Below are positions 6,853 through 22,254 of a stretch of 26,725 nt of DNA, piece by piece. Positions within the stretch are counted from its first letter, which is position 1. The number at the start of each line of letters is the position of its first letter. The translations under genes and the position numbers were made by a program. The notes under the pieces were generated by a model that saw only the letters and a program-made list of their open reading frames with translations, ran no database searches and was not told the DNA's origin. The stretch is from a virus: positions 2,202 through 28,926 of the IMG/VR virus record IMGVR_UViG_3300030419_003212; one strand, 5' to 3'.

Positions 6853-7210
6853 GATGTCCTCTCCTCAACGCACGTAATTTTTGACTCTTTGTCATTACCT
6901 TTCCTTCATAGACATCCGACTCTACTGCATTCTTATCTACGTTTGAGATAGCAATCTCTCTTTTTATATCAACTTCCACTGGTGCTGTTCTCATAGATTT
7001 ACCATTTGTAATTTTTCCCGCGATTGCGTTAGCTAATTGATTTATATCAATGTTTGGTTGTTGTGGTGGTAATGGTTTGCTATCACCATACACACTCATA
7101 TCCTCTTCTACAATAGTATGTTGTGGTGCTCTTTTAACAATAGGTTTTGGTGGTGGATTTCCAGATGTCCTAACAATTCGTTTAGCTCCTGTAAGTGGTT
7201 GAACAGCCAT
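6842..7210 (-). CDS. Unrecognised small protein with a KLRALRR C-terminus
   Basis: A 122-residue basic, proline-rich protein that I do not recognise. The first half is low-complexity (P-P-P-K-P, L-P-P-Q-Q-P-N) and likely disordered. It is followed by a short helix I-N-Q-L-A-N-A-I-A and a basic end with K-L-R-A-L-R-R. The same seven residues end the membrane protein at 17761-18066. The gene overlaps the gp15-like gene by 11 bases and shares one base with the preceding gene, so translation is probably coupled. Confidence 0.65.
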   Translation of the reverse strand: MAVQPLTGAKRIVRTSGNPPPKPIVKRAPQHTIVEEDMSVYGDSKPLPPQQPNIDINQLANAIAGKITNGKSMRTAPVEVDIKREIAISNVDKNAVESDVYEGKVMTKSQKLRALRRGHRGS

Positions 7211-7503
7211 TAAGTAAACCTCTCTTTACCAGTTCCACCTAATTTTCGTTGTATGTATCCTTGTGCCCATTTACCAGCTTTTCTTAGAATGTGAGTTCCT
7301 GTATCTACTATATAGTTAGCACCTTTGCCTTTTACGATCAAATAATAATCATGCTTTTTAATTCCGTGCTTCTTTCCAATAGAATGACGATCAGCCTCAC
7401 TACTACGATAAAGTCCAACAGATCTGCCACCTTTTAATCGAGCGGTGCCTACATACTCATCACCTACAGCCATTCGTTCTAATAAATCTTTTAATTTTAC
7501 CAT
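7210..7503 (-). CDS. Small basic protein with capsid-targeting-like leader
   Basis: A 97-residue basic protein. It begins M-V-K-L-K-D-L-L-E, matching the leader shared by the block at 14.4-22.3 kb and ending in L-L-E, a potential gp21 protease site. The body has a compact beta-rich look (Y-V-G-T-A-R-L-K-G-G-R-S-V-G-L-Y) and a basic C-terminus. No enzyme motif is evident. If the leader works as in T4 internal proteins, it is packed in the prohead and trimmed after Glu9. It is the only such gene located among the neck and tail genes. It overlaps the preceding gene by 7 bases and ends in a TAATG overlap. Confidence 0.65.
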   Translation of the reverse strand: MVKLKDLLERMAVGDEYVGTARLKGGRSVGLYRSSEADRHSIGKKHGIKKHDYYLIVKGKGANYIVDTGTHILRKAGKWAQGYIQRKLGGTGKERFT

Positions 7504-8384
7504 TTTCTACAACTCCAATATCTGGCCTTATGTCTAGGTCCAGGGTTATCACAATTATGTCTTGCTCTAAAAGACTTTCTAGCTTCAGGATTATCTTTTT
7601 TAATTTTCATTCCTTTTTGTCCAAAATTTACTTTGACTACATTACCTTTTGGATTTTTAACATATACTTTAAATTTTTTACTATCACCTGCCGTTGGTTT
7701 ACCGAGTTTTACTTCACGACCTTGATATTCCGCTTCACCAAGTTGTGTTTGTGCCATCTGTTTAAGATATGGTATAAATGTGGTGTAATCTTGTTCATTT
7801 ACAACATCAAACTCTTCTGCTATTGGAACACAGTTTGGAACTTCCTGTCCGTTCTTCATTTTCATACCAATCATTTCATACCCATCCCAACAAGGATTAT
7901 CATTTTCTTGTTCTTTTGCATTTATCTTTTTGCCAGCTTTTACCGCATCTTGATATGCTTTTGAATTTGGATGAGATGATTTTTCACCTCTGGCTTTTTT
8001 CTTTCTTATATTATGCCAAAGTCCTTTGCTTTGCTCATTTACTTTTCCACCCATTTTAATTACTCCTAATGGTCTCGGACCACATCGTTTTCTCCAAGCC
8101 GCATTTGATTCGCCTGGTAGTTTGCGATCACAGCTAGGGTCTTCATTTATCTCGGCAGTGTAACCTTCTGGATGATATTTCATCTCCACTACCTGAGCAT
8201 CTTTCTTAATACTTTTGTTATCTACCAGCACTTCAACTGGAGCAGGTTTGTCTGGTTTTTCATACCAGTATGCCATTTTGTATCCACCATCATCAAGAAG
8301 TTTTACTAACATACCTCTTTTATAATCTTTATCTTCTGCCTGTAATACTACAGTTTTTCCTCTTGGTAAAATTAAATCAGCCAT
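7497..8384 (-). CDS. Multidomain virion-associated protein with Cys-bearing C-terminal domain
   Basis: A 295-residue protein built from several segments. Residues 1-70 are a small beta domain. About 85-150 is basic and contains a Cys pair (S-C-D-R-K-L-P-G-E-S-N, then R-C-G-P). About 163-187 holds the motif P-C-W-D-G-Y-E-M-I-G-M-K ending N-C-V-P. The last 80 residues carry the motifs F-K-V-Y-V-K-N-P-K-G, K-S-F-R-A-R-H-N-C and A-R-Y-W-S-C-R-K-W. From memory, these C-terminal and P-C-W-x-G-Y modules recur in marine T4-like phage structural proteins of unknown function. Just before the last domain is L-G-E/A-E-Y-Q-G, a perfect gp21-type site, so the C-terminal domain could be cut free during maturation. 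Spaced Cys residues suggest metal binding, unproven. It overlaps both neighbours slightly. Confidence 0.7.
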   Translation of the reverse strand: MADLILPRGKTVVLQAEDKDYKRGMLVKLLDDGGYKMAYWYEKPDKPAPVEVLVDNKSIKKDAQVVEMKYHPEGYTAEINEDPSCDRKLPGESNAAWRKRCGPRPLGVIKMGGKVNEQSKGLWHNIRKKKARGEKSSHPNSKAYQDAVKAGKKINAKEQENDNPCWDGYEMIGMKMKNGQEVPNCVPIAEEFDVVNEQDYTTFIPYLKQMAQTQLGEAEYQGREVKLGKPTAGDSKKFKVYVKNPKGNVVKVNFGQKGMKIKKDNPEARKSFRARHNCDNPGPRHKARYWSCRKW

Positions 8385-8509
8385 TAGTATTCCAATTGCT
8401 TCTTCAAATTTATCTTTTCTTGTCCTCTACTTTTTCTACGTTTATCTTTGAACGCCTTAGTAGTCGGTATTGGAAAATCTGACATTTTTGGTTTATAAAT
8501 TTTTTTCAT
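8384..8509 (-). CDS. Very small basic protein (41 residues)
   Basis: A short gene that fits exactly between two others: its ATG overlaps the stop of the gp14-like gene (TAATG) and its stop overlaps the ATG of the next gene (TAATG). The product begins M-K-K-I-Y-K-P-K-M-S-D-F-P-I-P and is strongly basic, with K-D-K-R-R-K-S-R-G in the middle. I recognise no domain. The perfect double coupling and the absence of any other gene in this space make it a likely real gene. Confidence 0.7.
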   Translation of the reverse strand: MKKIYKPKMSDFPIPTTKAFKDKRRKSRGQEKINLKKQLEY

Positions 8510-8976
8510 TATTTAGGCCTCTCAACTATTTGTAATGACGATTGACGTATTCTATGCGCCACAGCTTTTATCATATGTTTAAATGCTTGATGACCACCAA
8601 TTAATTGTGGTTCTGTGATAGCATTCATTTCCCAATAAAAATCATTCCAATATACTATATCTCCCATTTCTGGAGCAAATCCTGCCTCTGTAAGTGTGGT
8701 TCTATGAAAATACATTTCTAAATTTGCATTTAGATCAGGTCCCATGTCACCAATATCAACAGACGGCTCTTCAAAAGAAATTAAACAATTCACTCTAAAT
8801 CCAACATCATAATATTTTGTAGTCGACTCACCATAAATATTTGAATCTGTATTTTCTAATGATATTTTATAAATATCAACATACTGACCCAAAATGTCGT
8901 CAATTAATTCCTCATTTAAAGTATCAAAAAGATCTACTTCTTTTTGTGGAATAAAAAATGGTGACGTCTCAGCCAT
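8509..8976 (-). CDS. 14: Neck protein, gp14-like
   Basis: A 155-residue protein resembling the core of T4-family gp14, which with gp13 forms the neck that closes the filled head and accepts the tail. Fitting features are E-L-I-D-D-I-L-G-Q-Y-V-D-I-Y-K near the start, Y-G-E-S-T-T-K-Y-Y, G-F-R-V-N-C-L-I, the segment G-F-A-P-E-M-G-D-I-V-Y-W-N-D-F-Y-W-E, and Q-L-I-G-G. It is shorter than T4 gp14 (256), as I recall for marine relatives. It starts four bases after the gp13-like gene, keeping the T4 13-14 order. Confidence 0.72.
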   Translation of the reverse strand: MAETSPFFIPQKEVDLFDTLNEELIDDILGQYVDIYKISLENTDSNIYGESTTKYYDVGFRVNCLISFEEPSVDIGDMGPDLNANLEMYFHRTTLTEAGFAPEMGDIVYWNDFYWEMNAITEPQLIGGHQAFKHMIKAVAHRIRQSSLQIVERPK

Positions 8977-8980
8977 CAGA

Positions 8981-10162: not shown

Positions 10163-10186
10163 TAAATTATTCCTGTTACGTTCTTA

Positions 10187-10194
10187 TATAAATA
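10187..10194. promoter_or_regulatory. TATAAATA octamer upstream of the neck operon
   Basis: It is 25 bases before the gp13-like start, within TATATAAATATA. The octamer reads on the plus strand; the coding strand shows TATTTATATAAG. A terminator just upstream means a promoter is expected here. Confidence 0.4.
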
Positions 10195-10220
10195 TACAAC
10201 AATAACAAAAAGCCTAACAT

Positions 10221-10250
10221 AAAAAAAGGGGTAGTAAAACTACCCCTTTA
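10221..10250 (-). terminator. Rho-independent terminator
   Basis: A perfect 10-bp stem (10225-10234 with 10240-10249, arms AAAGGGGTAG/CTACCCCTTT) has a tight 5-base loop. On the minus strand it is followed by a run of T residues. It ends transcription of the gene at 10296-10799. Confidence 0.88.
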
Positions 10251-10295
10251 GTTTTGTTCGGTCTAACGACTATTAATATCTTATGATTTAAATCA

Positions 10296-10799
10296 TTAAG
10301 ATGTAGCCCACGGAGCAGAACCCTGAGTATTGGCGAAGCCTAAACACACATAGTTTGTGCCATCGCAATATACTTCGAGTCTATCACCAACCACAGAATT
10401 AACCGTATCAGCATTATATCTGACTGTGGTTACTGTATCTGTAGTGTGTGCTTGTGCTGCACCTGATCCAGTAAAGCTAGTACATGACATAATCATGTTA
10501 TCAGCTCCAGAAGTCCAAGTAACATCATTATCAGAAATAATTTTGAATATGAATGTTGCATGAAATCCTGCTGCACCGGCTACTGCAGGTAACGTGTACG
10601 CGATGGTCCCATCAGTGCTATCCATAAGATACGTTCTTCCAGAATCAGCCATTACCAATGTTGGAGTGGCCGCTCCAGTTGTTGTACTTACTTGAACTCT
10701 AGCACCCACCGACTGGTGAGCTGCTATTGCTGCTACTTTGTGGATTTGCTGCGTATTATGCTTTTTGCCATCAACCGTAACTTGTCTTAATATCCCCAT
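10296..10799 (-). CDS. Small beta-rich probable virion protein
   Basis: A 167-residue protein rich in Ala, Thr, Gly and Val with alternating strands, probably a beta sandwich. Notable segments are S-G-R-T-Y-L-M-D-S, Y-T-L-P near 80, and G-D-R-L-E-V-Y-C-D-G-T-N-Y-V. These T-Y and G-x-N-Y-V patterns resemble small phage decoration or fibre-associated domains, but I cannot name a family. Position right after the major capsid gene suggests a head decoration protein. It is enclosed by two terminators with only about 24 bases between the upstream hairpin and its start, so its expression may rely on readthrough from gp23 or a very compact promoter. Confidence 0.7.
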   Translation of the reverse strand: MGILRQVTVDGKKHNTQQIHKVAAIAAHQSVGARVQVSTTTGAATPTLVMADSGRTYLMDSTDGTIAYTLPAVAGAAGFHATFIFKIISDNDVTWTSGADNMIMSCTSFTGSGAAQAHTTDTVTTVRYNADTVNSVVGDRLEVYCDGTNYVCLGFANTQGSAPWATS

Positions 10800-10809
10800 T
10801 AAACTTCTC

Positions 10810-10855: not shown

Positions 10856-10870
10856 TCATTATTGTTGATT

Positions 10871-12550
10871 TTACAGTTTATCTAATCCGTCAATATGGAT
10901 CTTACCATAAAACTCAGGTCTGATCATCTTCTTAGCGTAACGAGTCATCACACCTTTTCTTGGAGTAAAATCACTTGGATCATACACAAGAGGTGTCATA
11001 ATTAACGGAACGTAAGGAGCATAAACAGCACCAGTTTCTAGGAAATTGGATCCACGGAATCCAACAAGAACAGTGTTCTCAGTCATGTAAGGATTCTTAT
11101 AGACGTTAAAACGGTTATTAATACCACCGATTTTCTGTACGCCCATTGCGAATTGTGCTTTATCACCATCTGTATCAGCCATGTAGCCAGGAAGCGATTC
11201 AAGAATCGTCGCGACTTTAGGTGAAACAACACAGAAGTTAGCACCACCACGTAGTGTTAATCTGTGAATTTCATTAGATACTTTTTGGATCTTCTGCACT
11301 AGTGTTTGATACCACTCGAAACGTGTACCGTAGAAGGTTGTGTTTACAAACGATGTTGAACTCGAGTTGTAATCGTCACCTTGGTTTACGGACCAGTAAT
11401 CGACTGTGGAAGCATCACTAATTAACATATCAAGAATCTCAAGATCGATTTCCATTGATACATACTCAGAAAGCATTGAAGTCAACTCTGCTTCTGCGTC
11501 AACACTGTGATAAGCGTTAAGGTCTTGAGCAAGCTCAGGAGTCCATACAGCTTTCAACTTACGAGTTTTCGCAACGATAGCACGAGATTTAAGTTCAATA
11601 TCTACTTGTGGAATCTGTAAAGAATCTGAAGTAGCATCGCCACCTGAATCTTCGAAGTCACCACGTGCAGCTTCTGAAGTGTATTTCACATATGAAGCGG
11701 TAATTGACAGCAAGTGAGCTGCAGCAGATGCTGAGTAAATTGCTGATAAGGTACCGGCAACACCTTCCGCACCAGTGATTTTAGTAAATTCTGGATAAAA
11801 AGCGTAAACTTCTTTACCTGAACCTATAGCATCACCGTTAGGGTTAGCAGCTGATGGCTGATGGCCATCGCCAGAACCTGAATAGAATTGTGTAGCTCTG
11901 ATTGCAAGTTTGTCAATATCTGTTTCAGTAACAGCTTTTGTTACTTTAAAGATTTGACCAGCGTTCAGAGAAGCACTAAATTCAGTGTTAAAATTAACGT
12001 CATTCCAGTTTGCAGCAGCTGTAGTTAATGAAGCGTAATCTAATGATGCAGTTGCAGCTGAATAGCCGTAACGTCCTGCACCATAGAAACCGTCTTCACC
12101 AAATGGAGCGCTTGAACCAGATGGACTATATTTACCAGTTTTACCTTGTAAACTTTCATCTTCACCTTGACCCATTCTTGAGTTTCCATATTGGAAATCT
12201 AGATAGAATACAAGACCAGATGGTAAGTTCATAGGCTGAACTGATACGAATTCCTGAGCTGCAATCTCACCAAAGATTCTACGAACCAATGGAAGAGCAA
12301 CACCAGACCATTCTTCATCACCTTTGTAAGCACCTAATGATCCAGCATTTGGACTTGTTGAAGAAGCCTCTTTGATTAATTCACGTGCTTGGTTTTCAAG
12401 TAGTTGGGCCATGCCACCTCTTTGAAAATCACCGTCAATACCATCAAGTAAACCAGTCTTGTCCCATTTGTTGACTAGTTTTTTAGCATCTTCTTGCTGT
12501 TTCTTGTAGGGCGAAGCGTCCAGTAATGCGTCGTTTATGTAATTTGACAT
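10871..12550 (-). CDS. 23: Major capsid protein, gp23-like
   Basis: A 559-residue major capsid protein with the HK97 fold expected for the family (T4 gp23 is 521). Typical segments are V-R-R-I-F-G-E-I-A-A, then V-S-V-Q-P-M-N-L-P-S-G-L-V-F-Y, and the C-terminal F-T-P-R-K-G-V-M-T-R-Y-A-K-K. Residues 58-62 read L-I-K-E/A, a perfect [LI]-x-E/A site, so gp21 should remove the first 61 residues; T4 gp23 is cut at 65. The middle has extra Gly/Ser-rich loops. Start has AGGAG seven bases upstream. It follows the scaffold candidate by 18 bases and is closed by a terminator, which fits very high expression. Codon choice is richer in C-ending codons than in most neighbours. Confidence 0.93.
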   Translation of the reverse strand: MSNYINDALLDASPYKKQQEDAKKLVNKWDKTGLLDGIDGDFQRGGMAQLLENQARELIKEASSTSPNAGSLGAYKGDEEWSGVALPLVRRIFGEIAAQEFVSVQPMNLPSGLVFYLDFQYGNSRMGQGEDESLQGKTGKYSPSGSSAPFGEDGFYGAGRYGYSAATASLDYASLTTAAANWNDVNFNTEFSASLNAGQIFKVTKAVTETDIDKLAIRATQFYSGSGDGHQPSAANPNGDAIGSGKEVYAFYPEFTKITGAEGVAGTLSAIYSASAAAHLLSITASYVKYTSEAARGDFEDSGGDATSDSLQIPQVDIELKSRAIVAKTRKLKAVWTPELAQDLNAYHSVDAEAELTSMLSEYVSMEIDLEILDMLISDASTVDYWSVNQGDDYNSSSTSFVNTTFYGTRFEWYQTLVQKIQKVSNEIHRLTLRGGANFCVVSPKVATILESLPGYMADTDGDKAQFAMGVQKIGGINNRFNVYKNPYMTENTVLVGFRGSNFLETGAVYAPYVPLIMTPLVYDPSDFTPRKGVMTRYAKKMIRPEFYGKIHIDGLDKL

Positions 12551-12568
12551 CTAACTTCTCCTAATAAG

Positions 12569-13759
12569 TTATTTGATTATACCAGCTAGTTTTCTAAACC
12601 TATCAGCTACTTGACGCTCTTCTGTAATAATTTCAGTTTTGCGTTTTGTAGATCCAGTTTTAGCACTTGCTGATTCTTTTAATTTTGATTTGCGATTTGG
12701 TACAGTTTTATCAGAAAAACTCTCGACAAGTGTAGCATACACTAACTTGATTTCACGAGTAGATTGAGCACGATCAAATGTCTCAACAACTCTAAGTTTC
12801 TGACTGTTGTCCAAAGCAAACTCTTTAAACAGTTTGTTAGTAAACAGAAGTTTAGCATTCAAAATGTTGACCTCATGTAGCTTAGCTTTTAAGAATTTAA
12901 CTGCAGCTTTGTACTCTTTGAGTTCTTCGCTATCGTCTTCTTCTTTTTCATCACCCTCTTTCATGTCTTCGTCTTCTTCTTTTTCAGCATCGTCATTTTC
13001 AGCTACCATTGCAGGAGTATTACCTACACCAGTATTTTCATCACCGACATGTTCTGGGTCTTCTTTGCCTTCAACATCTTCAGGATAAGCATCATCTGCT
13101 TCTGAGATTTTGGCAGTTCCGCCCATTTCTTCAGGTGGCTGTTCCTTATTAACGTCACCTTCGACGTCTTCAGGATAAGCATCGTCTTCTTCGTTTATTT
13201 CAAGCTCGAGCTCTTTAATGATAGATTCTAGGTCTAAATCTTCTTGACCAGAACCATCAGGGTCTTCAATACCTTCCATTTCGATCTCGTCGTCTTCCAT
13301 ATGCATTTTTTCGTACTTAACACCATTGATGTCAATTACTTCAGGGGCTTCATTTTCTTCATGTGGCTCGTGGCCCATTTCATCTTTTTCGTGTCCCATC
13401 TCATCTTTTTCGTGTCCCATCTCATCTTGCCCTATGTGCATATTTTCAGCGTCTAATTCCATTTCGTCGTCCTCTTCGTGTCCCATTTCAACGTTTGGTT
13501 CACCAGTTACTGGATCCAATGCAGGATCTGGAGCTGGTTCCATTTCGTCGTCCTCTTCGTGTCCCATTTCAACAGCTGGAATTTCTTCTTCATCTTCTTC
13601 GTGTCCTATATCCATTGGATCTTCTTCACGAAGTTTAGCTGACAACATAGATTGAAGTTTTGGCGCGAATGCTTCTTCCAAAGCCATCTTTGCATTTTGT
13701 AAAGCTGTTTCACGAACTGCTTTAGCATCAGCAATAGCTTCTTTCAAAATATCACTCAT
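12569..13759 (-). CDS. 22: Prohead scaffold/core protein candidate with E-M-G-H-E repeats, gp22-like
   Basis: A 396-residue, very acidic protein directly before gp23, where T4 has the scaffold gene 22. The N-terminus (about 1-45) is an Ala/Lys/Glu helix. The middle (about 50-245) is low complexity with six or so copies of [E/D]-M-G-H-E, two copies of D-D-A-Y-P-E-D-V-E-G, and many Glu/Asp residues. The C-terminal part (about 270-396) is helical and turns basic, as expected for a scaffold region that contacts capsid protein. Sites fitting gp21 cleavage include I-S-E/A, L-K-E/S and I-T-E/E, consistent with scaffold destruction during maturation. The His-rich acidic repeats are not known to me from T4 gp22 (269 residues). 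Function is inferred from position, composition and these sites. Confidence 0.72.
   Translation of the reverse strand: MSDILKEAIADAKAVRETALQNAKMALEEAFAPKLQSMLSAKLREEDPMDIGHEEDEEEIPAVEMGHEEDDEMEPAPDPALDPVTGEPNVEMGHEEDDEMELDAENMHIGQDEMGHEKDEMGHEKDEMGHEPHEENEAPEVIDINGVKYEKMHMEDDEIEMEGIEDPDGSGQEDLDLESIIKELELEINEEDDAYPEDVEGDVNKEQPPEEMGGTAKISEADDAYPEDVEGKEDPEHVGDENTGVGNTPAMVAENDDAEKEEDEDMKEGDEKEEDDSEELKEYKAAVKFLKAKLHEVNILNAKLLFTNKLFKEFALDNSQKLRVVETFDRAQSTREIKLVYATLVESFSDKTVPNRKSKLKESASAKTGSTKRKTEIITEERQVADRFRKLAGIIK
13360..13422. repeat. 21-bp tandem repeats in the scaffold gene
   Basis: Two identical 21-bp units (13381-13401 and 13402-13422) follow a diverged one (13360-13380). Each codes for a seven-residue unit of the type E-M-G-H-E-K-D. 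They could change copy number by slippage without breaking the frame. Confidence 0.8.
13457..13573. repeat. 36-bp direct repeats, period 81 bp, in the scaffold gene
   Basis: The segment 13457-13492 recurs exactly at 13538-13573. The 81-bp period keeps the frame and codes for a repeated V-E-M-G-H-E-E-D-D-E-M-E block. Confidence 0.8.
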
Positions 13760-13901: not shown

Positions 13902-14126
13902 CTAGTTTTCTCTCATTTTTTGATATTTAGCTCTAAGTATAGCCATTTTTTTCATATGCCTACGTTTAGTGGATTTTTTGGTGTAATGAGCTCGTTCTCT
14001 TATTTCAAGTAATAACTCACTGTCTTTGACTTTTTGTTTAAATTTTGATAATGCTTTGTCTATATTATTGTTATAAACTTTAACGTACAACCCTTTTGTT
14101 TTTGGTTCCTTTTGTCTTCGCGGCAT
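13902..14126 (-). CDS. rpsU: Phage-encoded ribosomal protein bS21
   Basis: A 74-residue basic protein matching bacterial bS21 from about residue 13: V-K-V-Y-N-N-N-I-D-K-A-L-S-K-F-K, then E-I-R-E-R-A-H-Y-T-K-K-S-T-K-R-R and a Lys/Arg helix (M-K-K-M-A-I-L-R-A-K-Y). bS21 sits on the 30S platform near the anti-Shine-Dalgarno end of 16S rRNA and assists initiation. Phage copies are known and are thought to replace the host protein and favour phage translation; that role is inferred here. It has the best ribosome binding site seen in this block, AGGAGG four bases before ATG, placed inside the end of the preceding gene, which it overlaps by 47 bases. It is the last gene before the scaffold-capsid unit. 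Confidence 0.9.
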   Translation of the reverse strand: MPRRQKEPKTKGLYVKVYNNNIDKALSKFKQKVKDSELLLEIRERAHYTKKSTKRRHMKKMAILRAKYQKMREN

Positions 14127-14412
14127 ATAACCTCCTGATTTCTTCTTTTATTATTTGTCGCAGTTTTTGTTCTACACGTGATTCTTTTACAGCGCGTGAT
14201 TCTATAAATTTATTTGCTAAATAACGCTCTTTACCATACTTTGCAAGTTCCCATTTTTTCCTCATTGATTTTGGCATCGTATCATAATCCTCTGACATCT
14301 GATTATTTACAAACCAAGCAACTCTTCTGGCGTCTGCATTTACTAATTTTCTATAACGATTTTCTTCAAGCGTTTTCATCCATTTTTTTATTTCTTTGAC
14401 CGTTATTCTCAT
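14080..14412 (-). CDS. Small basic helical protein, unknown
   Basis: A 110-residue strongly basic, helical protein. The N-terminus M-R-I-T-V-K-E-I-K-K-W-M-K-T-L-E-E recalls the helical leaders of neighbouring genes but is not a clear match. The centre has W-F-V-N-N-Q-M-S-E-D-Y-D-T-M-P-K-S-M-R-K-K-W. Near the C-terminus is L-R-Q-I-I-K-E-E-I-R-R-L, containing an I-K-E site. No known family is recognised. Its start overlaps the stop of the dismutase gene (ATGA), and its end overlaps bS21 by 47 bases in another frame, so all three are probably co-translated. Confidence 0.7.
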   Translation of the reverse strand: MRITVKEIKKWMKTLEENRYRKLVNADARRVAWFVNNQMSEDYDTMPKSMRKKWELAKYGKERYLANKFIESRAVKESRVEQKLRQIIKEEIRRLYAAKTKGTKNKRVVR

Positions 14413-15041
14413 TGTACTTCTCTCATGTTTTGGGATACAACATCCCAGTCTATAATATTAAATATCTCTGTGAGGTACTTTTTTCTATCATTTTTATAAT
14501 CTAAATAATAAGCATGTTCCCATAAATCAATAACCATAACAGGATACGTTCCCATCATTATTGGTGTATCTGCATCATGCATATCTTGTATTACTAATTG
14601 ACTACCATCTTTAACAACCCACACCCATCCTGAACCAAAGTGTTCACTACCCCAATGAATTACTTCTTTTTTGAATGTATCAAATGATCCAAAATTTTTC
14701 TCTATACAATTTAAACATTCACCTTTTGGTTTCCCACCACCTTTTGGTGATAACAACTCCCAAAAAAAAGAATGATTGAAATGTTGTGCGGCATTGTTAA
14801 ATACATTCCATTGTTTGTCTGCGTAAGACCTTACAATGATACTGCTAAGTGGTTGTCCTTCGTATTTTGTATCTCTAATATTTTCGTTAAGTTTTTTAAC
14901 ATAACCACCATGATGTTTGTTGTAATGCACATCAAGTGATTTTATTGGTCTCAAAGATTGAAGACCGTACTTCAGCTTAGGAAGTTTAAAGTCTGTATCA
15001 TCTAGATACTCAAGTTGTTCAATCAGCTTCTTTAACTTCAT
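14409..15041 (-). CDS. sodB: Iron-type superoxide dismutase with capsid-targeting-like leader
   Basis: A 210-residue Fe/Mn superoxide dismutase, converting superoxide to hydrogen peroxide and oxygen. All four metal ligands are visible: His39 (V-H-Y-N-K-H-H), His90 (N-H-S-F-F-W), Asp172 and His176 (D-L-W-E-H-A-Y-Y-L-D-Y). Gln86 in N-N-A-A-Q lies where Fe-type enzymes carry their active-site Gln, and the Mn-type Gln position has Ala157, so iron is the likely metal. The usual enzyme start (F-x-L-P-x-L-x-Y) falls at residue 18, so there are 17 extra residues: M-K-L-K-K-L-I-E-Q-L-E-Y-L-D-D-T-D. These resemble the leader shared by nearby genes and contain L-I-E, a possible gp21 site. The start lies inside the actin-like gene (23-base overlap) and has only a weak ribosome binding site, so coupling is likely. 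The enzyme call is firm; packaging in the virion is inference. Confidence 0.93.
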   Translation of the reverse strand: MKLKKLIEQLEYLDDTDFKLPKLKYGLQSLRPIKSLDVHYNKHHGGYVKKLNENIRDTKYEGQPLSSIIVRSYADKQWNVFNNAAQHFNHSFFWELLSPKGGGKPKGECLNCIEKNFGSFDTFKKEVIHWGSEHFGSGWVWVVKDGSQLVIQDMHDADTPIMMGTYPVMVIDLWEHAYYLDYKNDRKKYLTEIFNIIDWDVVSQNMREVQ

Positions 15042-16077
15042 CTTCTGGCTGTGCTTCTTCTATATCCTCTTGTATTAACTCAGCTTCTGATAAACATCCT
15101 CTTGATACAGCGCTGTGTGCATCTTCTATTAAAATTATTTCCGATATTGGAATTGGAAATGTTTCCTGATCAAATTGCTCGTTGAATACATCTAAGAAAC
15201 CTTTAACTAACGATGTTCCACCACCAATAACAATTGGTACAGCGTTTGGAAATGCTGGTACGTTTGCGGTACCTTCAAATTGTACTTTTAAATTTGTAAG
15301 TAAATAATTTACTAATGCGCCGTAGTATGATCTAATTGCATGTAAGACTGTAAATTCATCTGACCCTTCGTCATAGATGTCTTGTACTATTCCTTTAGAT
15401 AAATCTAATTGATTAGATGTCTCTTTTACATTAGATACTTTTGCAATTGGAACACCCGTATCCATACTTACGTTTTTATCTATCCAATCTCCACCTCTGG
15501 ATACACTAAATGACAGTGCCGTCATTCCTTGATACATCACTGCTATGTTGCACATACCAGCACCCATTGAAATAGCCACACCGGTTAGATCACTATCTAC
15601 TAAACCTTCATATCCAATTGCAACAGCTTCTTCAATCTTTTTTACGTTGTATCCGTAACTATCAATAATTGTTTTCAACACATCTTCGTGATACGAAACT
15701 TCTCTATCCTCATCAATAGGTTTTGACGGAACGCAATAAACACACACTTCATTATCCGTTTTAGGTTTACCTAACAACTCTCCTATTATAGCATTTAAAA
15801 TTGGTAGAGCATCTTTTTCTTCTGGATTCAATAATCCACTTTTCATTGGTCGTCTTAGTGTTGATGTGCTAAATATTTGTGCATAGTTAAATGCATGCTT
15901 TCCTACTATATGAACTTTACCAGCCTTTTCTACAAATGGAATTCGCTGACGTTTTAACATACGCTTTGACTGGTTGGGATCACCATCTACCGTAAGAAAA
16001 GCGTTTCTTTGTTTTTTAATTGAGTCGTCTCGTGATGCTATATAAAACGATGTACCACAATCTAAACCTACTGCCAT
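15019..16077 (-). CDS. Actin/MreB/ParM-like nucleotide-binding protein
   Basis: A 352-residue member of the actin-like ATPase superfamily. Phosphate-1 loop: V-G-L-D-C-G-T-S (3-10). An MreB-like R-R-P-M-K-S-G-L-L lies at 75-83, C-V-P-S at 115-118 and an E-E-A-V-A-I-G segment at 149-155. Phosphate-2 loop: V-A-I-S-M-G-A-G (167-174). S-R-G-G-D-W-I-D follows at 193-200, and the adenosine motif I-V-I-G-G-G-T-S is at 283-290. The usual Asp of the phosphate-2 motif (D-[IL]-G-G-G) is Ser170, which may weaken hydrolysis. The C-terminus is acidic and disordered. Start has AGGAGG five bases upstream. Known relatives make filaments for DNA segregation, cell shape or phage positioning; here the role is unknown. 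Its end overlaps the dismutase start, suggesting coordinated amounts. Confidence 0.85.
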   Translation of the reverse strand: MAVGLDCGTSFYIASRDDSIKKQRNAFLTVDGDPNQSKRMLKRQRIPFVEKAGKVHIVGKHAFNYAQIFSTSTLRRPMKSGLLNPEEKDALPILNAIIGELLGKPKTDNEVCVYCVPSKPIDEDREVSYHEDVLKTIIDSYGYNVKKIEEAVAIGYEGLVDSDLTGVAISMGAGMCNIAVMYQGMTALSFSVSRGGDWIDKNVSMDTGVPIAKVSNVKETSNQLDLSKGIVQDIYDEGSDEFTVLHAIRSYYGALVNYLLTNLKVQFEGTANVPAFPNAVPIVIGGGTSLVKGFLDVFNEQFDQETFPIPISEIILIEDAHSAVSRGCLSEAELIQEDIEEAQPEDEVKEAD

Positions 16078-16086: not shown

Positions 16087-16443
16087 CTAAACCCCGTGTA
16101 CAGGGATATTCAATTTTATTAAAACTTCAATAACATTATCAAAATGCTTAGATGGTATTGCTAATACACCTTTGTTTCCTTTTTGTGTAAACGTATAACC
16201 ATCTTTCTTTTTTGGACCCGCTACTGGAATCCGTAATTTTTTCATTGCAGCTAGAATACGTACTTTAGATGCGCGATCTGCTGGTACCTTTAGTTTTTCA
16301 ACTTTAGCTTCTTTGAGCTTTTGTAGCTCATCTGCTATAATTTCTTTTAATCTAGCTTTTGTGATTGTCATTTCTTCTCTTTTCTTTTTCTTCTTTGGAG
16401 CATGACCATGTGATCTTTCTTTGATTGGTCTTAGTTTACTCAC
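16087..16443 (-). CDS. Basic protein, C-terminal part of a gene split by UGA
   Basis: An open frame of 118 codons if begun at the GTG at 16443, but the frame continues open upstream to a UGA at 16585-16587 and beyond it to the coupled ATG at 16710. The GTG has no good ribosome binding site, so it may not be a true start. The product is very basic, with P-K-K-K-K-K-R-E-E followed by M-T-I-T-K-A-R-L-K-E-I-I-A-D-E-L, a helix like the leaders of other genes here; Met25 (16371) could be an independent start with a purine-rich stretch ahead. The last 70 residues look like a small alpha/beta domain ending N-I-P-V-H-G-V. Family not recognised. Confidence 0.65.
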   Translation of the reverse strand: MSKLRPIKERSHGHAPKKKKKREEMTITKARLKEIIADELQKLKEAKVEKLKVPADRASKVRILAAMKKLRIPVAGPKKKDGYTFTQKGNKGVLAIPSKHFDNVIEVLIKLNIPVHGV

Positions 16444-16584: not shown

Positions 16585-16710
16585 TCATGTATGAGGTTTC
16601 ACTTTTGTAGTGTAAACCTTCTCCTCTTCTTTAAGTTGTGCTGGTGTTTTAAACGGTGGCTGATCTGCGTCCGTATAAATCTTTCCTAATTTTACATCTT
16701 TAATCTTCAT
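16585..16710 (-). CDS. N-terminal part of the same gene, ending at in-frame UGA
   Basis: Starts at ATG 16710, which overlaps the stop of the preceding gene (ATGA), the coupling used across this block. It encodes 41 residues beginning M-K-I-K-D-V-K-L-G-K-I-Y and stops at UGA (16585-16587). After the UGA the same frame stays open and reads like continuing protein: A-T-W-R-D-P, N-R-P-G-V-V-G-E-V-T-W-H-N-L and G-V-D-I-V-D-I-K-F-G-N-K-F. The whole gene would be 16710 to 16087, 207 codons. UGA is a normal stop elsewhere in this window, so this is a nonsense mutation, a sequence error or readthrough. Confidence 0.6.
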   Translation of the reverse strand: MKIKDVKLGKIYTDADQPPFKTPAQLKEEEKVYTTKVKPHT

Positions 16711-17048
16711 ATTTTTCTTTGCTTAATTAATTTAATCCAATTGCTTGGTTTTATAGCGGTGTGTCGTTTACCGCTTTTCTCAACCTTGCTAATTATTTTG
16801 CTTATAATATCATTAATTTGTTGAGTTTTCAACCGTCCAGCTTTACCTCTCTCAAGGTCCATCTCTAACTCACCATAATGGTCTTCTTCTCTAGGGCTTA
16901 GATGTCGATGTTTTCTACTCCATAAATTTCTAACCTTTTTCCACCTTGAGTCAGAGCTGTGCTTTTGGAACATTGACTCCGTTATATTGGAACAACAACT
17001 TCCATTACACTCACATTGCTCTGGTATCAAATCTTTTAATTTTATCAT
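16707..17048 (-). CDS. Leader-bearing protein with Cys cluster
   Basis: A 113-residue basic protein with the shared leader M-I-K-L-K-D-L-I-P-E, ending in I-P-E, a potential gp21 cut after residue 10. The predicted mature protein would begin Q-C-E-C-N-G-S-C-C, four Cys within eight residues, which suggests a metal site or disulfides. The middle has R-W-K-K-V-R-N-L-W-S-R-K-H-R-H-L-S-P-R-E and the end is Lys/Arg-rich. Unrecognised. It shares one base with the gene before it (TAATG) and overlaps the next by ATGA. A basic, DNA-binding internal head protein would fit, as inference. Confidence 0.65.
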   Translation of the reverse strand: MIKLKDLIPEQCECNGSCCSNITESMFQKHSSDSRWKKVRNLWSRKHRHLSPREEDHYGELEMDLERGKAGRLKTQQINDIISKIISKVEKSGKRHTAIKPSNWIKLIKQRKI

Positions 17049-17398
17049 TAATTTTTCTTTGAATATGACATATACCCTTTTGCACTTCTAGATGGTCCTG
17101 AGGCTTCATACCCTATATTTTTTAATTGTCTTGCAATATTTTTTAACATTTTATTTGTTTTCTTTATGTCAGCATCCTTATGATATAAGAATATATGTTG
17201 GTGTGAAGGCTTTATTGAGTAAGCAAATTCCCTTCGTTTTATATTATATTTATACCAAAGATTACGTGAACCCGTTTCCCATGTTCTCGTATTAGGTTCT
17301 CTAACTTTTGTTATTTTAAACTTTTTCATTACCCTTGAGATGTCTCTTGCCATCTCTCTATAAATATTTTCTTTAATTAATTGTTTTAATTTAATCAT
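17048..17398 (-). CDS. Leader-bearing small basic protein
   Basis: A 116-residue very basic protein. The leader M-I-K-L-K-Q-L-I-K-E ends in L-I-K-E, the same tetrapeptide as the predicted gp23 maturation site. The body has a helix (E-M-A-R-D-I-S-R-V-M-K-K-F), strands around W-Y-K-Y-N-I-K-R-R-E-F-A-Y-S-I, H-Q-H-I-F-L-Y-H, and a helix K-K-T-N-K-M-L-K-N-I-A-R-Q-L, an alpha/beta layout that could bind nucleic acid. No known family is recognised. GGAGG sits eight bases before the start, inside the gap after the previous gene. Confidence 0.65.
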   Translation of the reverse strand: MIKLKQLIKENIYREMARDISRVMKKFKITKVREPNTRTWETGSRNLWYKYNIKRREFAYSIKPSHQHIFLYHKDADIKKTNKMLKNIARQLKNIGYEASGPSRSAKGYMSYSKKN

Positions 17399-17401: not shown

Positions 17402-17764
17402 TTATACCTCCACGTATCCAAACACTGAACCTCTGCCCATTGGTGCAAATTCTAAATCTTTTCCATCAATAGCATCTCTAGTTCTTTTAAGGTACCAAAC
17501 TGTTTTTCCACGTATTGTTCCTTTTGCTTTTAAATTGCTTAACTTAATCTTAAACGATTTCTTGTAAAAATCTAATTTTTTTCCCTTTTTTTGTAAAATG
17601 ACGCCTGGTGCCTTTTTGTGATATTTATTATCAACGATTGCATATCCACGTTTTATTGCCAGTATGTGTTGCAGATATCTACTACTTACTACAAGTGCGA
17701 CTCTATCACCTGGTTTTGGATCGTCATCCCTTCCTTCTTTTAATAGTTCTTTAAGTTTTATCAT
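17402..17764 (-). CDS. Leader-bearing protein, possible SH3-like fold
   Basis: A 120-residue basic protein with leader M-I-K-L-K-E-L-L-K-E/G, a perfect [LI]-x-E/G gp21-type site after residue 10. The mature part begins with acidic D-D-D, then P-K-P-G-D-R-V-A-L-V-V, a pattern common at the start of small beta-barrel domains, and later strands such as G-V-I-L-Q-K-K-G-K-K-L-D-F-Y. Unrecognised otherwise. It overlaps the membrane protein gene upstream by ATGA. Confidence 0.65.
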   Translation of the reverse strand: MIKLKELLKEGRDDDPKPGDRVALVVSSRYLQHILAIKRGYAIVDNKYHKKAPGVILQKKGKKLDFYKKSFKIKLSNLKAKGTIRGKTVWYLKRTRDAIDGKDLEFAPMGRGSVFGYVEV

Positions 17765-18066: not shown

Positions 18067-18069
18067 ACA

Positions 18070-18558
18070 TTATTGTGCTTGGACTGCCTTTGTTACCGCG
18101 TCACGACGATTCTTTAGATACTCGTCTGACTCGTCACTATCACCGTCATTGTCCACATCACCGTCTTCACCACCAACTGGATCTAACGCTTCGTGTATGT
18201 CATAATATCTATTTAAGATACCACCTATGTCTTCATATAAAGATGTTAATCTATTGCTAACAGCATTGTATTCTTTTGCAGCAACTTTAAATTCCTTTAC
18301 CATTCCATTCATGGATTTCATATTTCTATTAATAGTAACTTTATCAAACCACTCATCTGTTTCTGATAGAACGTGATTATGAGCTTGCTCTGCTATCTGT
18401 ACTAGTTGCTCGGCTATTTGAAGTACGTTTGTTTCGGAATAAATAGATTTCCCAATATTACCGTATTGAGATACAGCTTCTATAACTGCATGCTTATCAA
18501 TAGGCTTTTCGTTTTCTTCAAATACTTCCGTCAACAAATCTTTTAATTTTGTCGCCAT
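18070..18558 (-). CDS. Leader-bearing helical protein with Asp-rich Ca-binding-like loop
   Basis: A 162-residue acidic, helical protein. The leader M-A-T-K-L-K-D-L-L-T-E ends in L-T-E (cut predicted after 11). Long helices fill residues 20-125. At 134-145 is D-V-D-N-D-G-D-S-D-E-S-D, matching the spacing D-x-D-x-D-G-x-x-D-x-x-D of calcium-binding thrombospondin type 3/EF-like loops, followed by E-Y-L-K-N-R-R. From memory, similar proteins with this D-N-D-G loop occur in marine T4-like phages without assigned function. Calcium binding is inference. Confidence 0.7.
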   Translation of the reverse strand: MATKLKDLLTEVFEENEKPIDKHAVIEAVSQYGNIGKSIYSETNVLQIAEQLVQIAEQAHNHVLSETDEWFDKVTINRNMKSMNGMVKEFKVAAKEYNAVSNRLTSLYEDIGGILNRYYDIHEALDPVGGEDGDVDNDGDSDESDEYLKNRRDAVTKAVQAQ

Positions 18559-18573
18559 TGTTTTTCTCCTACT

Positions 18574-19701
18574 TTATTTACCTTGTAATGAAGAAATGAT
18601 TTCAGCTTTTTTTGATACTGAAGCATTTCTATATGTTTTCGCAACGTATTCGTAATTTTTATTTACCATATCAGCTGCATCTTTTTTACTATTGCCTTTT
18701 TTAATTAAGTGCAATTGAATTCTTCTCTTTTCAGCGGTTGACTCAATTATAGTTTCTAATTTGAGTTTTTTTATCATCCTTCGGAATTCTCTATTCTTTT
18801 TCATATGTTTCCAAACATCAGGTTTGTATTTTCTCATATATAAAAAATATCTTTCTAACTCCCTGGCAGACATCTTTCTTTCATTTACGGATTCAAAAGA
18901 ATCGTAACCAATACCACCACTCCATTTCTCATCATCGTCACCATTTTTCTTTTTTCCACTACCTGGACCACCCTCTTTAAAGGATTCCTTCTTTACAAAT
19001 AATTTTTGAAGTTCTTTTGCAAGTTTAGATGCATATTTAACTTTTTTAGGTGATGGTATCTTTTTCAACATTTGTATGTATTTGTCCAAACCCCGCATAG
19101 CCCCACTATGAGCATCTAATCTATCTCTAAATGATACTGCCTCATTGGTAGACTCGTTTGCCCTTGCCATTAAGTCAGCAATTTTAGTCAATGTAGCTTT
19201 ATCTTTTTTTGATAACATTTTCAGCTGTCTATCTTTAGCTATTTGTCTTAATGATTTTTCCCAAGATTTTGTTGATTCTTGCTTAACACCCATCAAATCC
19301 TTTCTATCAGGATTGTGTGAAAACACATTTAGAACTCTCATTTTTTTACCGGGATGCATGCTGTTGACTTGACGTATAGCATCATCCTTATCTAAAGCTG
19401 GAATAATAGTGCTAAAAGGAACTGGATCATCATGAAGTTGAACTTCAAATGTCACTCTATATTTATTATTTTCAGTTTCTCTTAACATATTTTCGTACAT
19501 TTTTCTTAACACGTTTTTAAATTGTTCTTCTACCTTTTCTGGTTTCCCAGTATGTTTGGTTGAAGCAAAATCTTTTGCATCTTTGTCAGACATAGATGAC
19601 GCAGCTTTTTTTACTGAAGCTGGTGCGTCTTTCATATCACCTTTTTTATACGAATGAACCATTCCCATGAACCGTTGCTGTGATTTAGACTTACTTGGCA
19701 T
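18574..19701 (-). CDS. Head-cluster protein with N-terminal MPSKSKSQQ domain
   Basis: A 375-residue very basic protein. Residues 1-57 (M-P-S-K-S-K-S-Q-Q-R-F-M-G-M-V-H, later D-A-K-D-F-A-S-T-K-H) match a short module I believe is the DUF3008-type family found in phage proteins. Around 62-78 is a helix ending M-L-R-E, a gp21-type site. About 80-130 looks like a small alpha/beta domain (Y-R-V-T-F-E-V-Q-L-H-D-D-P-V-P-F). A Gly-rich linker G-G-P-G-S-G-K-K-K sits near 245, and helical basic segments fill the rest, with I-I-E/S near 320. Probably a prohead core or internal protein by composition and place. It overlaps the upstream gene by 11 bases. Confidence 0.65.
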   Translation of the reverse strand: MPSKSKSQQRFMGMVHSYKKGDMKDAPASVKKAASSMSDKDAKDFASTKHTGKPEKVEEQFKNVLRKMYENMLRETENNKYRVTFEVQLHDDPVPFSTIIPALDKDDAIRQVNSMHPGKKMRVLNVFSHNPDRKDLMGVKQESTKSWEKSLRQIAKDRQLKMLSKKDKATLTKIADLMARANESTNEAVSFRDRLDAHSGAMRGLDKYIQMLKKIPSPKKVKYASKLAKELQKLFVKKESFKEGGPGSGKKKNGDDDEKWSGGIGYDSFESVNERKMSARELERYFLYMRKYKPDVWKHMKKNREFRRMIKKLKLETIIESTAEKRRIQLHLIKKGNSKKDAADMVNKNYEYVAKTYRNASVSKKAEIISSLQGK

Positions 19702-20323
19702 TTCTCTCGTACTCAGCTATAGAGTTCCACATTTCAGCAAACGCTCTTATACTATTTTTACCACCTTTGTTCCAGTTACCCCTTTTTGCATTATTAGCTA
19801 AATCTTTTGCCATTCTTTGAACTTTACTTTTCAAAGTGCCGTATGTGTACATACCAATGCCGGGAACTTGAATCTTAGCATCTTTATTTATTTTTTCATC
19901 TACTGATTCTTTTCTTCGTATAACATCTTGACCAAATCCTGGTAGTTTTGCAAATTGTCTTAGATAATCAGCTGTTCTAGCATAGGTTTTTATTTTTAGA
20001 AAATCATTTGGTCTTGCGTGACTCATATTAAGAGCACCAATCTTTTCAAATTTGTGCCAACCACTTGGTCCACCTGCATATCTTATAATACCTTTTTTAT
20101 CTATTTCTATTGGTAAAACTGTTTTCTTACCATCTTTATCTTTTACATGAATAAATGCTCCATACAATGCAGCATCTCCTGTACGATATCCTCGCTTGTA
20201 TGGTACATGCTTTAAAACTTTAATCTTTGCGTACTTAAATACTTTGCCTATTTCACTAGCCATTCTACTCATGTCCTGATCCCAATCAAGCTTTTCTGTA
20301 ATTAATTCTCTTAATTTTACCAT
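19691..20323 (-). CDS. Leader-bearing basic protein, 210 residues
   Basis: The leader M-V-K-L-R-E-L-I-T-E ends in I-T-E (cut predicted after 10). The body is basic, with strands near 30-75 (G-A-F-I-H-V-K-D-K-D-G-K-K-T-V-L-P-I-E-I) and helices near 115-130 and 165-207. Tyr and Lys are frequent. I recognise no enzyme motif. Size and charge would suit a DNA-associated internal head protein. It begins four bases after the gene at 20328-20591. Confidence 0.65.
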   Translation of the reverse strand: MVKLRELITEKLDWDQDMSRMASEIGKVFKYAKIKVLKHVPYKRGYRTGDAALYGAFIHVKDKDGKKTVLPIEIDKKGIIRYAGGPSGWHKFEKIGALNMSHARPNDFLKIKTYARTADYLRQFAKLPGFGQDVIRRKESVDEKINKDAKIQVPGIGMYTYGTLKSKVQRMAKDLANNAKRGNWNKGGKNSIRAFAEMWNSIAEYERNAK

Positions 20324-20327
20324 TACC

Positions 20328-20591
20328 CTACCTGTTAAAATATTTATTTAAATGTTTTTGAGCACCTTTAAGATCAAACTTACCTTGCCTCTTTACCCCA
20401 ACTCTAAGTGCATCTATAAAAGCGTGTTGTAAACCTGGTGAGTTAAAGCTACTTAAAGTTTTACCAATCTTTGACATATGTGAATCAATTTGTCTCAGGA
20501 GTACTCCTAATGGAATTTTTAAATCTTGAGCTAATTCCTTATCCTTATCCGCAATTGATTTTTCGTTTAACATATCCTTTAATTTGATCAT
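20328..20591 (-). CDS. Leader-bearing small helical protein
   Basis: An 87-residue basic, all-helical protein. Leader M-I-K-L-K-D-M-L-N-E ends in L-N-E. The rest has helices around L-A-Q-D-L-K-I-P-L-G-V-L-L-R-Q-I and a basic end (L-K-G-A-Q-K-H-L-N-K-Y-F). Its ATG overlaps the stop of the 58-residue gene upstream (ATGA). No known family is recognised. Confidence 0.62.
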   Translation of the reverse strand: MIKLKDMLNEKSIADKDKELAQDLKIPLGVLLRQIDSHMSKIGKTLSSFNSPGLQHAFIDALRVGVKRQGKFDLKGAQKHLNKYFNR

Positions 20592-20764
20592 TGCTTTTCT
20601 CCAAGTATGTCATCTACTAAAGTCCGAACAGCTGAGTCGTTAATTTCAGCTTGCACCTTTTCAAGTACAGATACTTTCTTTGTTACTAATTTTTTCTTTT
20701 GTGTTGACGGACGTGTTGGTCGTTCAATACCAAACATTTCCGACATATAATTTTTGTATTTCAT
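20588..20764 (-). CDS. Short basic protein (58 residues)
   Basis: A small gene fitted exactly between neighbours: its ATG overlaps the stop of the 496-residue gene (TAATG) and its stop overlaps the next ATG (ATGA). It begins M-K-Y-K-N-Y-M-S-E-M-F-G-I-E-R-P-T, has a Lys-rich centre and an acidic helical end with D-D-I-L-G-E. It contains no shared leader. Family unknown, but gene geometry supports it. Confidence 0.65.
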   Translation of the reverse strand: MKYKNYMSEMFGIERPTRPSTQKKKLVTKKVSVLEKVQAEINDSAVRTLVDDILGEKQ

Positions 20765-22254
20765 TAAATAAAACTCTTCATTAAACGTTCATTATATTTA
20801 TTATACTCGATAAATTCTTTTCGTAGGTTGTACACTCCTTCTCCCATAATAGTATCATATAAATCTTCTTCTCTTGTTTCAATATAATTTGCAAGTTTCA
20901 TTCCAGTATCTCCAAAATCAAGAGTACCATCGTTAATACCTTGCATAAGTATAGCATGTTGAATAGCTCCAAACGGATCTTGATCAGGTTTTGGTATTTG
21001 GTTATTTTCTAAATTACTATACATTTCTTTTACGTCATAGTCATCATCAAACCCTTGTACAATTAATTCAAATGCTTTTTCTCTTCTTTCCGGTATAATT
21101 CCATCTATTGCATTGTCAATAGTTTGATCTAAATCAGCTCCACCTACTTCGTCATAAAAATTATCATCGTCGTCATCAGGTTCTTCCCAATCATATGGAT
21201 TGTCTGATCCTTTGGTATCTCGTTCACCAGGACTTTTGTAATTGGGATCAGATGGTGATTGGTTTACTGTTGAACCTGTTCTACCACCCATTGGTGCATT
21301 ATAAAAATCAGATTGGATAACATCAAGATCGTAAGCAAGATTATTTAATGCGTCCTGAAACATTTGTCTACCTTCCCCATCTAAGTTATCTGCAAAGTCC
21401 ATTAGATCTTCATCTGTTGCTCCAGCATCTAGAGCAGCTTGAATATCATCATCAATCATCCTATCAACATCTCTATCTTCACCATATGACATACCTCTGT
21501 TTAATGCGTCATACATTCCTTCCTCCGCATCTTGAAGAGCTGAATCAATTTCCGTAGGATCAGGCTCTTCACCAAAGCCTCTACCACCATAACTACGATT
21601 GCGTTGTCCCATAGATGTATCGTCCCATTCACTATCTTTTTCTGGTTTGTCTGGATCTATAACTTGTTTTACTTTGTCTCTTAAAAATCCCATCTCGTTA
21701 GGTGTTCGACCTGTTGCATCAGATAAAATTTGCTCTACAGTTTTATCAGAGAAAGGTTTACCATCATCTGTTTCATACACACCATCTGCATTTTTATAAG
21801 CACCTCGTCTTGCCATTATGTCTTGTTCAAATCTATCTACAGAATTTGCAACACTTTTAGGTATATCACCTTCGTGAGTTTCTAAATCTACTGATATGTC
21901 TGCTAATTCTTTTCTCGCATTATCATAAGCTTCCTGCCCTCTCTTTGGTTCGTAACCCTTGTCTAGTTCACCTGTTTTATCTGGGCTGGGTTCGTCTGCT
22001 GGTTTTTCTGGATCAAATGGGTTTGCATCAATTTTTGTTATTTTAGGTTTATCAGGTTCTTTCTCAGCACCTTTACCGTCGTCACCACCTACTGGTTCAA
22101 ATTTTCCTTGATCTGTTTTTTTATATACTTGAGCGTTGGGATCTTTTTCCTTACCCTTATCTTTATACTTACCGTAACCGATATGGACTTTATCGTCGGA
22201 TTCTGCAATCACTTCCTTAATTAAATTGCGAATGTAAAGTCTCGTAACTTTCAC
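20764..22254 (-). CDS. Large acidic head-cluster protein with leader
   Basis: A 496-residue very acidic protein. The N-terminus M-K-V-T-R-L-Y-I-R-N-L-I-K-E-V-I-A-E/S contains two overlapping gp21-type sites, I-K-E and I-A-E/S, so the leader is likely removed after residue 18. Then comes a motif V-H-I-G-Y-G-K-Y-K-D-K-G-K-E-K-D that I recall from other marine phage proteins. The centre is Asp/Glu-rich and partly disordered (D-D-D-D-D near 345), with several short helical repeats of the form D-x-x-x-D-A. It lies right after the protease, where T4 has scaffold gene 22, so it could be a second scaffold or an internal protein. Role inferred from position and composition. Confidence 0.65.
   Translation of the reverse strand: MKVTRLYIRNLIKEVIAESDDKVHIGYGKYKDKGKEKDPNAQVYKKTDQGKFEPVGGDDGKGAEKEPDKPKITKIDANPFDPEKPADEPSPDKTGELDKGYEPKRGQEAYDNARKELADISVDLETHEGDIPKSVANSVDRFEQDIMARRGAYKNADGVYETDDGKPFSDKTVEQILSDATGRTPNEMGFLRDKVKQVIDPDKPEKDSEWDDTSMGQRNRSYGGRGFGEEPDPTEIDSALQDAEEGMYDALNRGMSYGEDRDVDRMIDDDIQAALDAGATDEDLMDFADNLDGEGRQMFQDALNNLAYDLDVIQSDFYNAPMGGRTGSTVNQSPSDPNYKSPGERDTKGSDNPYDWEEPDDDDDNFYDEVGGADLDQTIDNAIDGIIPERREKAFELIVQGFDDDYDVKEMYSNLENNQIPKPDQDPFGAIQHAILMQGINDGTLDFGDTGMKLANYIETREEDLYDTIMGEGVYNLRKEFIEYNKYNERLMKSFI

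Follow-up and report, generated by a model that had tools for sequence, protein, structure and literature searches.

A ten-residue N-terminal leader of consensus MIKLKxLLxE joins otherwise unrelated proteins encoded in the head module of a T4-type phage and, judging from sequence, is very probably a cleavable capsid-targeting propeptide like that of the T4 internal proteins, removed by the prohead protease gp21. The leader genes lie in a viral stretch of 26,725 nucleotides, here called the window, which covers positions 2,202-28,926 of the IMG/VR record IMGVR_UViG_3300030419_003212. The original prediction had proposed a movable, capsid-targeting-like tag that is cut by gp21 after [LI]xE, and five lines of evidence support it: the register shared with T4, the match of the leader core to the gp23 maturation site, the association with gp20, gp21 and gp23, the depletion of [LI]xE in the protein bodies behind the leader and the exchange of leaders at the junction. 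Because the source record is a viral fragment of 28,926 bases, further leader genes were sought in relatives, namely 80 identified through gp21 rather than through the leader.

The leader genes of the window

A strict leader was defined as M-[IV]-K-L-[KR]-x-[LIM]-[LI]-x-E. All nine leader genes that had been predicted are present, every one on the minus strand:

17019-17048, minus: leader MIKLKDLIPE, exact pattern; gene 16707-17048 (113 aa, body start QCECNGSCC)
17369-17398, minus: leader MIKLKQLIKE, exact pattern; gene 17048-17398 (116 aa, no [LI]xE in the body)
17735-17764, minus: leader MIKLKELLKE, exact pattern; gene 17402-17764 (120 aa, no [LI]xE in the body)
18526-18558, minus: leader MATKLKDLLTE, strict with one extra residue; gene 18070-18558 (162 aa, probable prohead-core component)
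20294-20323, minus: leader MVKLRELITE, exact pattern; gene 19691-20323 (210 aa)
20562-20591, minus: leader MIKLKDMLNE, exact pattern; gene 20328-20591 (87 aa)
7477-7503, minus: shifted leader MVKLKDLLE(-R), residue before E missing, ending L-L-E; gene 7210-7503 (97 aa)
15018-15041, minus: shifted leader MKLKKLIE; Fe/Mn superoxide dismutase gene 14409-15041 (210 aa; PF02777 2.3e-34, PF00081 3.9e-19)
22213-22254, minus: longer second-class leader MKVTRLYIRNLIKE(VIAE), start also given as MKVTRLYIRNLIKEVIAE; gene 20764-22254 (496 aa, acidic)

Seven of the nine had been counted as strict; the number is six, five of them exact (16707, 17048, 17402, 19691 and 20328) and the sixth (18070) with its extra residue. 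In 7210 and 14409 the residue before E is absent and E comes early, with an [LI]xE ending retained, and 20764 carries a longer leader of a second class; 14409 (MKLKKLIE-QLE) and 20764 had been singled out as looser. The shifted form recurs in a homologue of 7210 in sequence L622 (MIKLKELLE), and homologues of 16707 in L035 and others read MIKLKELIKE/KCNCGSSCC.

The bodies were said to share no visible similarity, and those of 16707, 17048 and 17402 indeed have no homologue among the bodies of leader proteins (blastp, 1e-3); a phmmer search at 1e-3 against all fetched open reading frames (ORFs) likewise returned no homologue for 17048 and 17402. Eight of the nine proteins have no match in PHROG, and none matches a family there that names IPI-III. 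When PHROG and Pfam were searched with the window bodies, matches appeared only for the superoxide dismutase (SOD), for gp21 and for shared C-terminal modules of 18070, which match PHROG families mostly of unknown function. No match to the 20764 protein was found by tblastn in annotated phages, and the predicted structure of the 19691 protein has a mean predicted local distance difference test score (pLDDT) of 46.

The second leader class, of the MK[IL]T[KR]xxLKxII[KR]E type, occurs on the minus strand at 20764-22254, 16087-16443 and 23217-23474, is common in relatives and is interchangeable with MIKLK leaders on the same bodies. A short minus-strand gene at 20588-20764 (58 aa), conserved in L002 and looser in L003, starts with MKYKNYMSE, possibly a further leader that is closer in look to T4 MKTYQEFIAE.

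A register shared with T4 and a core shared with gp23

The T4-type head module occupies the minus strand and comprises gp20, gp21, a block of small genes, a gp22-like acidic protein and gp23:

22257-22862, minus: gp21 prohead serine protease (S77), proposed leader cutter (PF03420 2.4e-29; phrog_207 1.1e-54)
10871-12550, minus: gp23 major capsid protein (phrog_138 3.2e-71)
12368-12379, minus: gp23 maturation site L-I-K-E/A, residues 58-61, in the context ARELIKE/ASST, with E61 at the maturation position (alignment of 47 major capsid proteins)
12569-13759, minus: gp22-like scaffold between the leader block and gp23, assigned from position and acidic composition, with 11 [LI]xE sites and no match in a PHROG search
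24400-26211, minus: gp20 portal (phrog_213 9.2e-68)

Both the gp21 gene and the L-I-K-E/A maturation site of gp23 had been read correctly from the sequence. Across 188 relatives, gp21 keeps its motifs GELDH (in 185) and SSRG (in 182).

In T4, targeting is governed mainly by residues 4 and 7 of the leader and processing by residues 8 and 10, and gp21 cleaves after [LI]xE (PMC9026906). The conserved columns of the window's leader are L4, L/I7, L/I8 and E10; compared with the N-terminus of T4 IPII and IPIII (MKTYQEFIAE/A), it has equal length and the same four key positions, and bridging forms toward the T4 leader exist, e.g. MIKFKKFMTE. Among the 47 aligned gp23 proteins the maturation position is L-[ILV]-x-E in 45 and I-V-x-E in 2, its E being invariant, and the final four residues of the 17048 leader (LIKE) are those of the gp23 maturation site in the window.

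Spread of the leader

The search for more leader genes yielded 62 ORFs that start with the strict leader in the window and the 80 gp21 relatives, against a mean of 0.06 and a maximum of 1 in 200 shuffles. Internal methionines fit the strict leader by chance in only 4 of 4701 cases.

The leader is very common in IMG/VR. A DNA scan with the pattern MIKLKx[LIM][LIM]xE, controlled by a permuted pattern of the same composition, gave at least 152 matches in at least 119 stretches. Among the matches listed, 136 of 152 stand at the start of an ORF that is 60 aa or longer (12 of 120 with the permuted pattern), 24 stretches hold two to five leader matches (control, 0) and 36 of the 119 stretches carry head genes of the gp20/gp21/gp23 type (control, 2). 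In 28 whole contigs the true pattern matched 58 times and the reversed pattern not once. The S77 protease is present in 14 of 28 long leader contigs as against 5 of 28 control contigs, and four of the remaining leader contigs carry gp20 or gp23, with gp21 not seen. The gp20 or gp23 gene is within about 4 kb of the contig end in three of these four; in G019, the remaining one, gp23 stands 9 kb from the end, the intervening space being filled by tagged genes; because of this closeness to the ends, gp21 probably lies beyond them.

Two phages offer side observations. In Microcystis phage Mel-JY01, two neighbouring and similar proteins (L085:10276-10926 and 12056-12718) have the leaders MIKLKSLLQE and MIKLMSLVTE; both continue with VWH[LV]T, have no Pfam match and lie some 40 kb from gp21. 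Flavobacterium phage immuto_2-6A (MW353175; L088-L091) has at least four proteins with the common N-terminus M-x-F-[DN]-L-[KR]-x-F-L-[VT]-E-N-[KR]-L-T, apparently a leader dialect of its own.

The tagged bodies

Four leader scans and the gp21 relatives together gave 705 leader ORFs, which reduce to 217 non-redundant bodies and at least 169 body components; 33 Pfam families are represented. When 116 bodies were aligned with their leaders, the consensus MIKLKxxLxE was followed by almost no conservation. The Pfam matches include superoxide dismutase, NUDIX, HD, poly(A) polymerase/tRNA nucleotidyltransferase, ADP-ribosyltransferase (ART-PolyVal) and Mom, as well as zeta-toxin-like kinase, 5'-nucleotidase, SprT, GNAT and 2'-5' RNA ligase, and also M23 peptidase, VanY and lysozymes. 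A cargo family of 24 members had no match by tblastn in annotated phages.

Depletion of the cleavage motif

Bodies exposed to gp21 are expected to avoid [LI]xE. The observed/expected ratio of this motif is 0.89 in leader bodies; the remaining ORFs of these contigs give 1.16 and control contigs 1.15, whereas the mirror motif E-x-[LI] gives 1.19, 1.16 and 1.17 in the three sets, respectively. The depletion has a permutation p-value of 5e-5 (in 20,000 permutations of the labels the observed value was never reached), and in a blind test of 2124 residue-pair motif classes [LIVM]xE and [LI]xE were the two most depleted in leader bodies. When a hydrophobic residue precedes [LI]xE, as it does in the leader, the ratio is 0.65 versus 1.19. 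Bodies behind second-class leaders (MKLTKSKLKEIIREE-type), which are few in number, have a ratio of 1.09 (interval 0.65-1.54).

These counts bear on the proposal, which we consider unlikely, that all tagged proteins are scaffold-like components of the prohead core that are later degraded or expelled, so that none is found in the mature head or injected. The position of tagged genes between gp21 and gp22 in the window would suit such a role, and neither the 18070 family nor the large recurrent body component is depleted of [LI]xE, in which they resemble T4 gp22 and gp67, proteins that are cut into pieces (PMC9026906). Most bodies, however, avoid the motif, as a protein meant for degradation should not; moreover, many are folded enzymes (SOD, NUDIX, tRNA nucleotidyltransferase) and some tagged genes are distant from the head genes. 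For the 18070 protein itself a core role is more likely than a cargo role, because its body has extra [LI]xE sites, five in all, and because its family, with 117 matches among the fetched ORFs, recurs across these head modules.

Exchange of leaders at the junction

Where homologues of leader bodies carry dissimilar leaders, [LIVM]xE stands at most two residues from the homology boundary in 102 of 177 cases, with 20.4 expected. This count, in which a few near-copies of the leader remain, replaces a looser one of 173 of 267 that contained many of them. Like the depletion test, the junction test is independent of the leader's own sequence.

Individual bodies illustrate the exchange. A body homologous to that of 20328 sits behind a different leader, MNLTKSQLKEIIKEELLKE, in L005; in L022 (7577-7795) a leader of the same type, MKLKDLITE, immediately precedes the domain that forms the C-terminal part of the 19691 protein; and homologues of the 20764 body follow the first-class leader MRLKNLLLE in L510 and still other leaders in L020 and L564. 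A P-loop kinase body is found behind MIKLKDLLNE, MIKFKKFMTE, MKTFAELQE (Melnitz) and MIPFILKE (HTVC008M), and in the two isolates it begins straight after [LI]xE (MKTFAELQE/GVYDP and MIPFILKE/GLYDP). The leaders are thus exchangeable, and their joint with the body coincides with the proposed cleavage site.

The spread of one mobile DNA cassette, whose leader has no selected function, might account for the nearly identical leader DNA of some neighbouring genes. We rejected this explanation, to which we assign next to no probability: the DNA conservation ends at codon 10 and none is seen upstream of the start, and the protein pattern persists over 169 body components. A further alternative, that the leader is an amphipathic helix serving association with the membrane or RNA polymerase, or expression, and that [LI]xE is incidental, would agree with its amphipathic and basic character, with the scatter of tagged genes in some contigs and with the presence of lysozyme and peptidase bodies. 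It is most improbable in view of three observations: strict [LI]xE leaders are enriched among relatives whose selection relied on gp21 and not on the leader, it is exactly the gp21 motif that the bodies avoid, and the [LI]xE end is common to different leaders on the same body.

A tagged superoxide dismutase

The dismutase that had been recognized in the block is confirmed as an Fe/Mn SOD by PF00081 and PF02777. Four phage SODs have a leader of this kind, the other three being in the relatives L012 (MKLKTILKE), L479 (MIKLKNILTE) and L111 (MKLMSILTE), and H39, H90, D172 and H176, which we take to be the H, H, D and H metal ligands of Fe/Mn SODs, are invariant in all four. The closest SODs in the PDB are FeSODs for the window protein and Mn or cambialistic SODs for that of L479; because the two resemble different SOD types, the tag probably joined a SOD at least twice. 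A scan of viral contigs for SODs yielded nothing that was confirmed.

A phage SOD homologue with a short N-terminus ending in ISIAE/A is encoded by Pseudomonas phage PA5oct (EST35_0261). It is only 23% identical to the SOD of L479, and its record is marked ESI-MS/MS (electrospray ionization tandem mass spectrometry). This mark was rejected as direct proof of packaging, since metabolic and replication enzymes such as ribonucleotide reductase and thymidylate synthase are marked alike; as a hint of a packaged SOD the homologue is only suggestive. The tagged SOD may shield phage DNA, or the newly begun infection, from superoxide.

Proposed mechanism and points against it

In the mechanism that we propose, the basic-amphipathic part of the leader would bind the core during prohead assembly, so that the carrier protein is built into the prohead. 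gp21 would then cleave behind E10, the [LI]-[LIV]-x-E core there being the one at which it matures gp23, and the freed body would remain in the head alongside the DNA. Most tagged bodies would be accessory cargo that could reach the next host like the T4 internal proteins and Alt, and members of the 18070 family would more likely be core components that are themselves digested. The tag would thus behave as a module: unrelated bodies gain a leader and bodies swap leaders, and the two parts meet where the cut is proposed. That the tagged proteins are packaged, cut and delivered, and what each body does, is inferred, and so is the "injected effector set" of the original prediction.

Several observations weigh against this interpretation. 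The residue after E is not confined to A or G, the commonest being K, A, S, V and G. The SOD body contains three internal [LI]xE sites and the 18070 body five, where 1.9 are expected. The depletion is uneven, at 0.86 in small body families versus 1.11 in the large recurrent component, as would suit a set made up of both cargo and core-like proteins, 18070 being one of the latter. Lysozyme and peptidase bodies, atypical of T4 internal proteins, are tagged. Ten of the 28 long leader contigs, which may be fragments, have neither S77 nor gp20 or gp23, and phage immuto, whose gp21 is 49% identical, lacks the strict leader and shows repeated N-termini of other kinds only. Finally, no virion proteomics or injection data for phages with this leader were found in the literature.

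Other genes of the window

In the part of the head module that separates gp21 from the gp22-like gene, an actin-like protein that matches Volactin (PF25216, E 1.5e-70) is encoded on the minus strand at 15019-16077. Close to the tagged SOD gene is a homologue of ribosomal protein S21 (13902-14126, minus; PF01165, 3.6e-11); in Mel-JY01 such a homologue adjoins gp21. A 285-aa protein behind the portal (23471-24328, minus) has 12 [LI]xE sites against 4.2 expected and is possibly a core protein destined for digestion. Tandem tail sheath genes at 1293-3605 and 3625-5514 (minus; 770 and 629 aa) are identical in their initial 24 residues. Small recurrent modules common to other phage protein families are DVDNDGDSDESDEYLKNRRDAVTKAV, at the C-terminus of 18070, and NPCWDGYEMIGMKMKNGQEVPNC, in 7497-8384 (minus).

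Relation to known systems and significance

The closest known counterpart is the capsid-targeting sequence of T4 IPI-III, likewise a ten-residue N-terminal leader with hydrophobic residues at positions 4 and 7, [LI] at position 8 and E at position 10, common to unrelated bodies and accompanied in the same phage by gp21 (S77) with its consensus [LI]xE. The dialect differs (MIKLKxLLxE here, MKTYQEFIAE in T4), and the present leader is known from sequence alone. T4 Ip1-3 block different GmrSD restriction enzymes, and at least ten proteins gathered by the leader have been reported in T-even phages (PMC12373910), in contrast to the 169 body components, many of them enzymes, seen here; the tagged ADP-ribosyltransferase-like bodies recall T4 Alt. 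According to the account of Repoila et al. (1994) cited in PMC12373910, the ip repertoire of T-even phages was recognized through the leader and its bodies are without homology. There, as here, the leader reveals new genes with bodies that lack homology, although that repertoire belongs to close T4 relatives and ours to uncultivated T4-type phages and a jumbo contig. The ejection proteins of SPN3US and phiKZ are internal proteins whose propeptides are removed by a gp21-type protease, most of these propeptides being longer than 100 residues (PMC5694885); similar removal is proposed here for a leader of only ten residues.

The principle that a leader gathers unrelated proteins into the head is thus already known from T-even phages. 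New here are the dialect of the leader, its wide occurrence among uncultivated phages, the range of enzymatic cargo and the two sequence signatures; no description of a MIKLK-type leader was found in the literature, most subscription journals being outside the search. The chances seem to us evenly balanced for a broader proposal, that T4-type phages of open water share a sequence-readable cargo code, in which interchangeable short [LI]xE leaders would mark more than 160 fast-turning families of enzymes and inhibitors that travel in the head with the genome, are released by the prohead protease and enter the host at infection, SODs of at least two clades being among those tagged.

The contents of the head are known for few phages, mainly through mass spectrometry. 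A leader legible in the sequence itself, together with the independent signal of motif avoidance in the bodies, points to candidate packaged, and possibly injected, proteins for many uncultivated T4-type phages. Each of the three T4 internal proteins blocks a different restriction enzyme (PMC12373910), which makes the 169 body groups an obvious set in which to seek counter-defence and host-takeover proteins, in addition to an unexpected packaged SOD; if the latter is true, infecting phages of this kind would arrive with a superoxide defence of their own.

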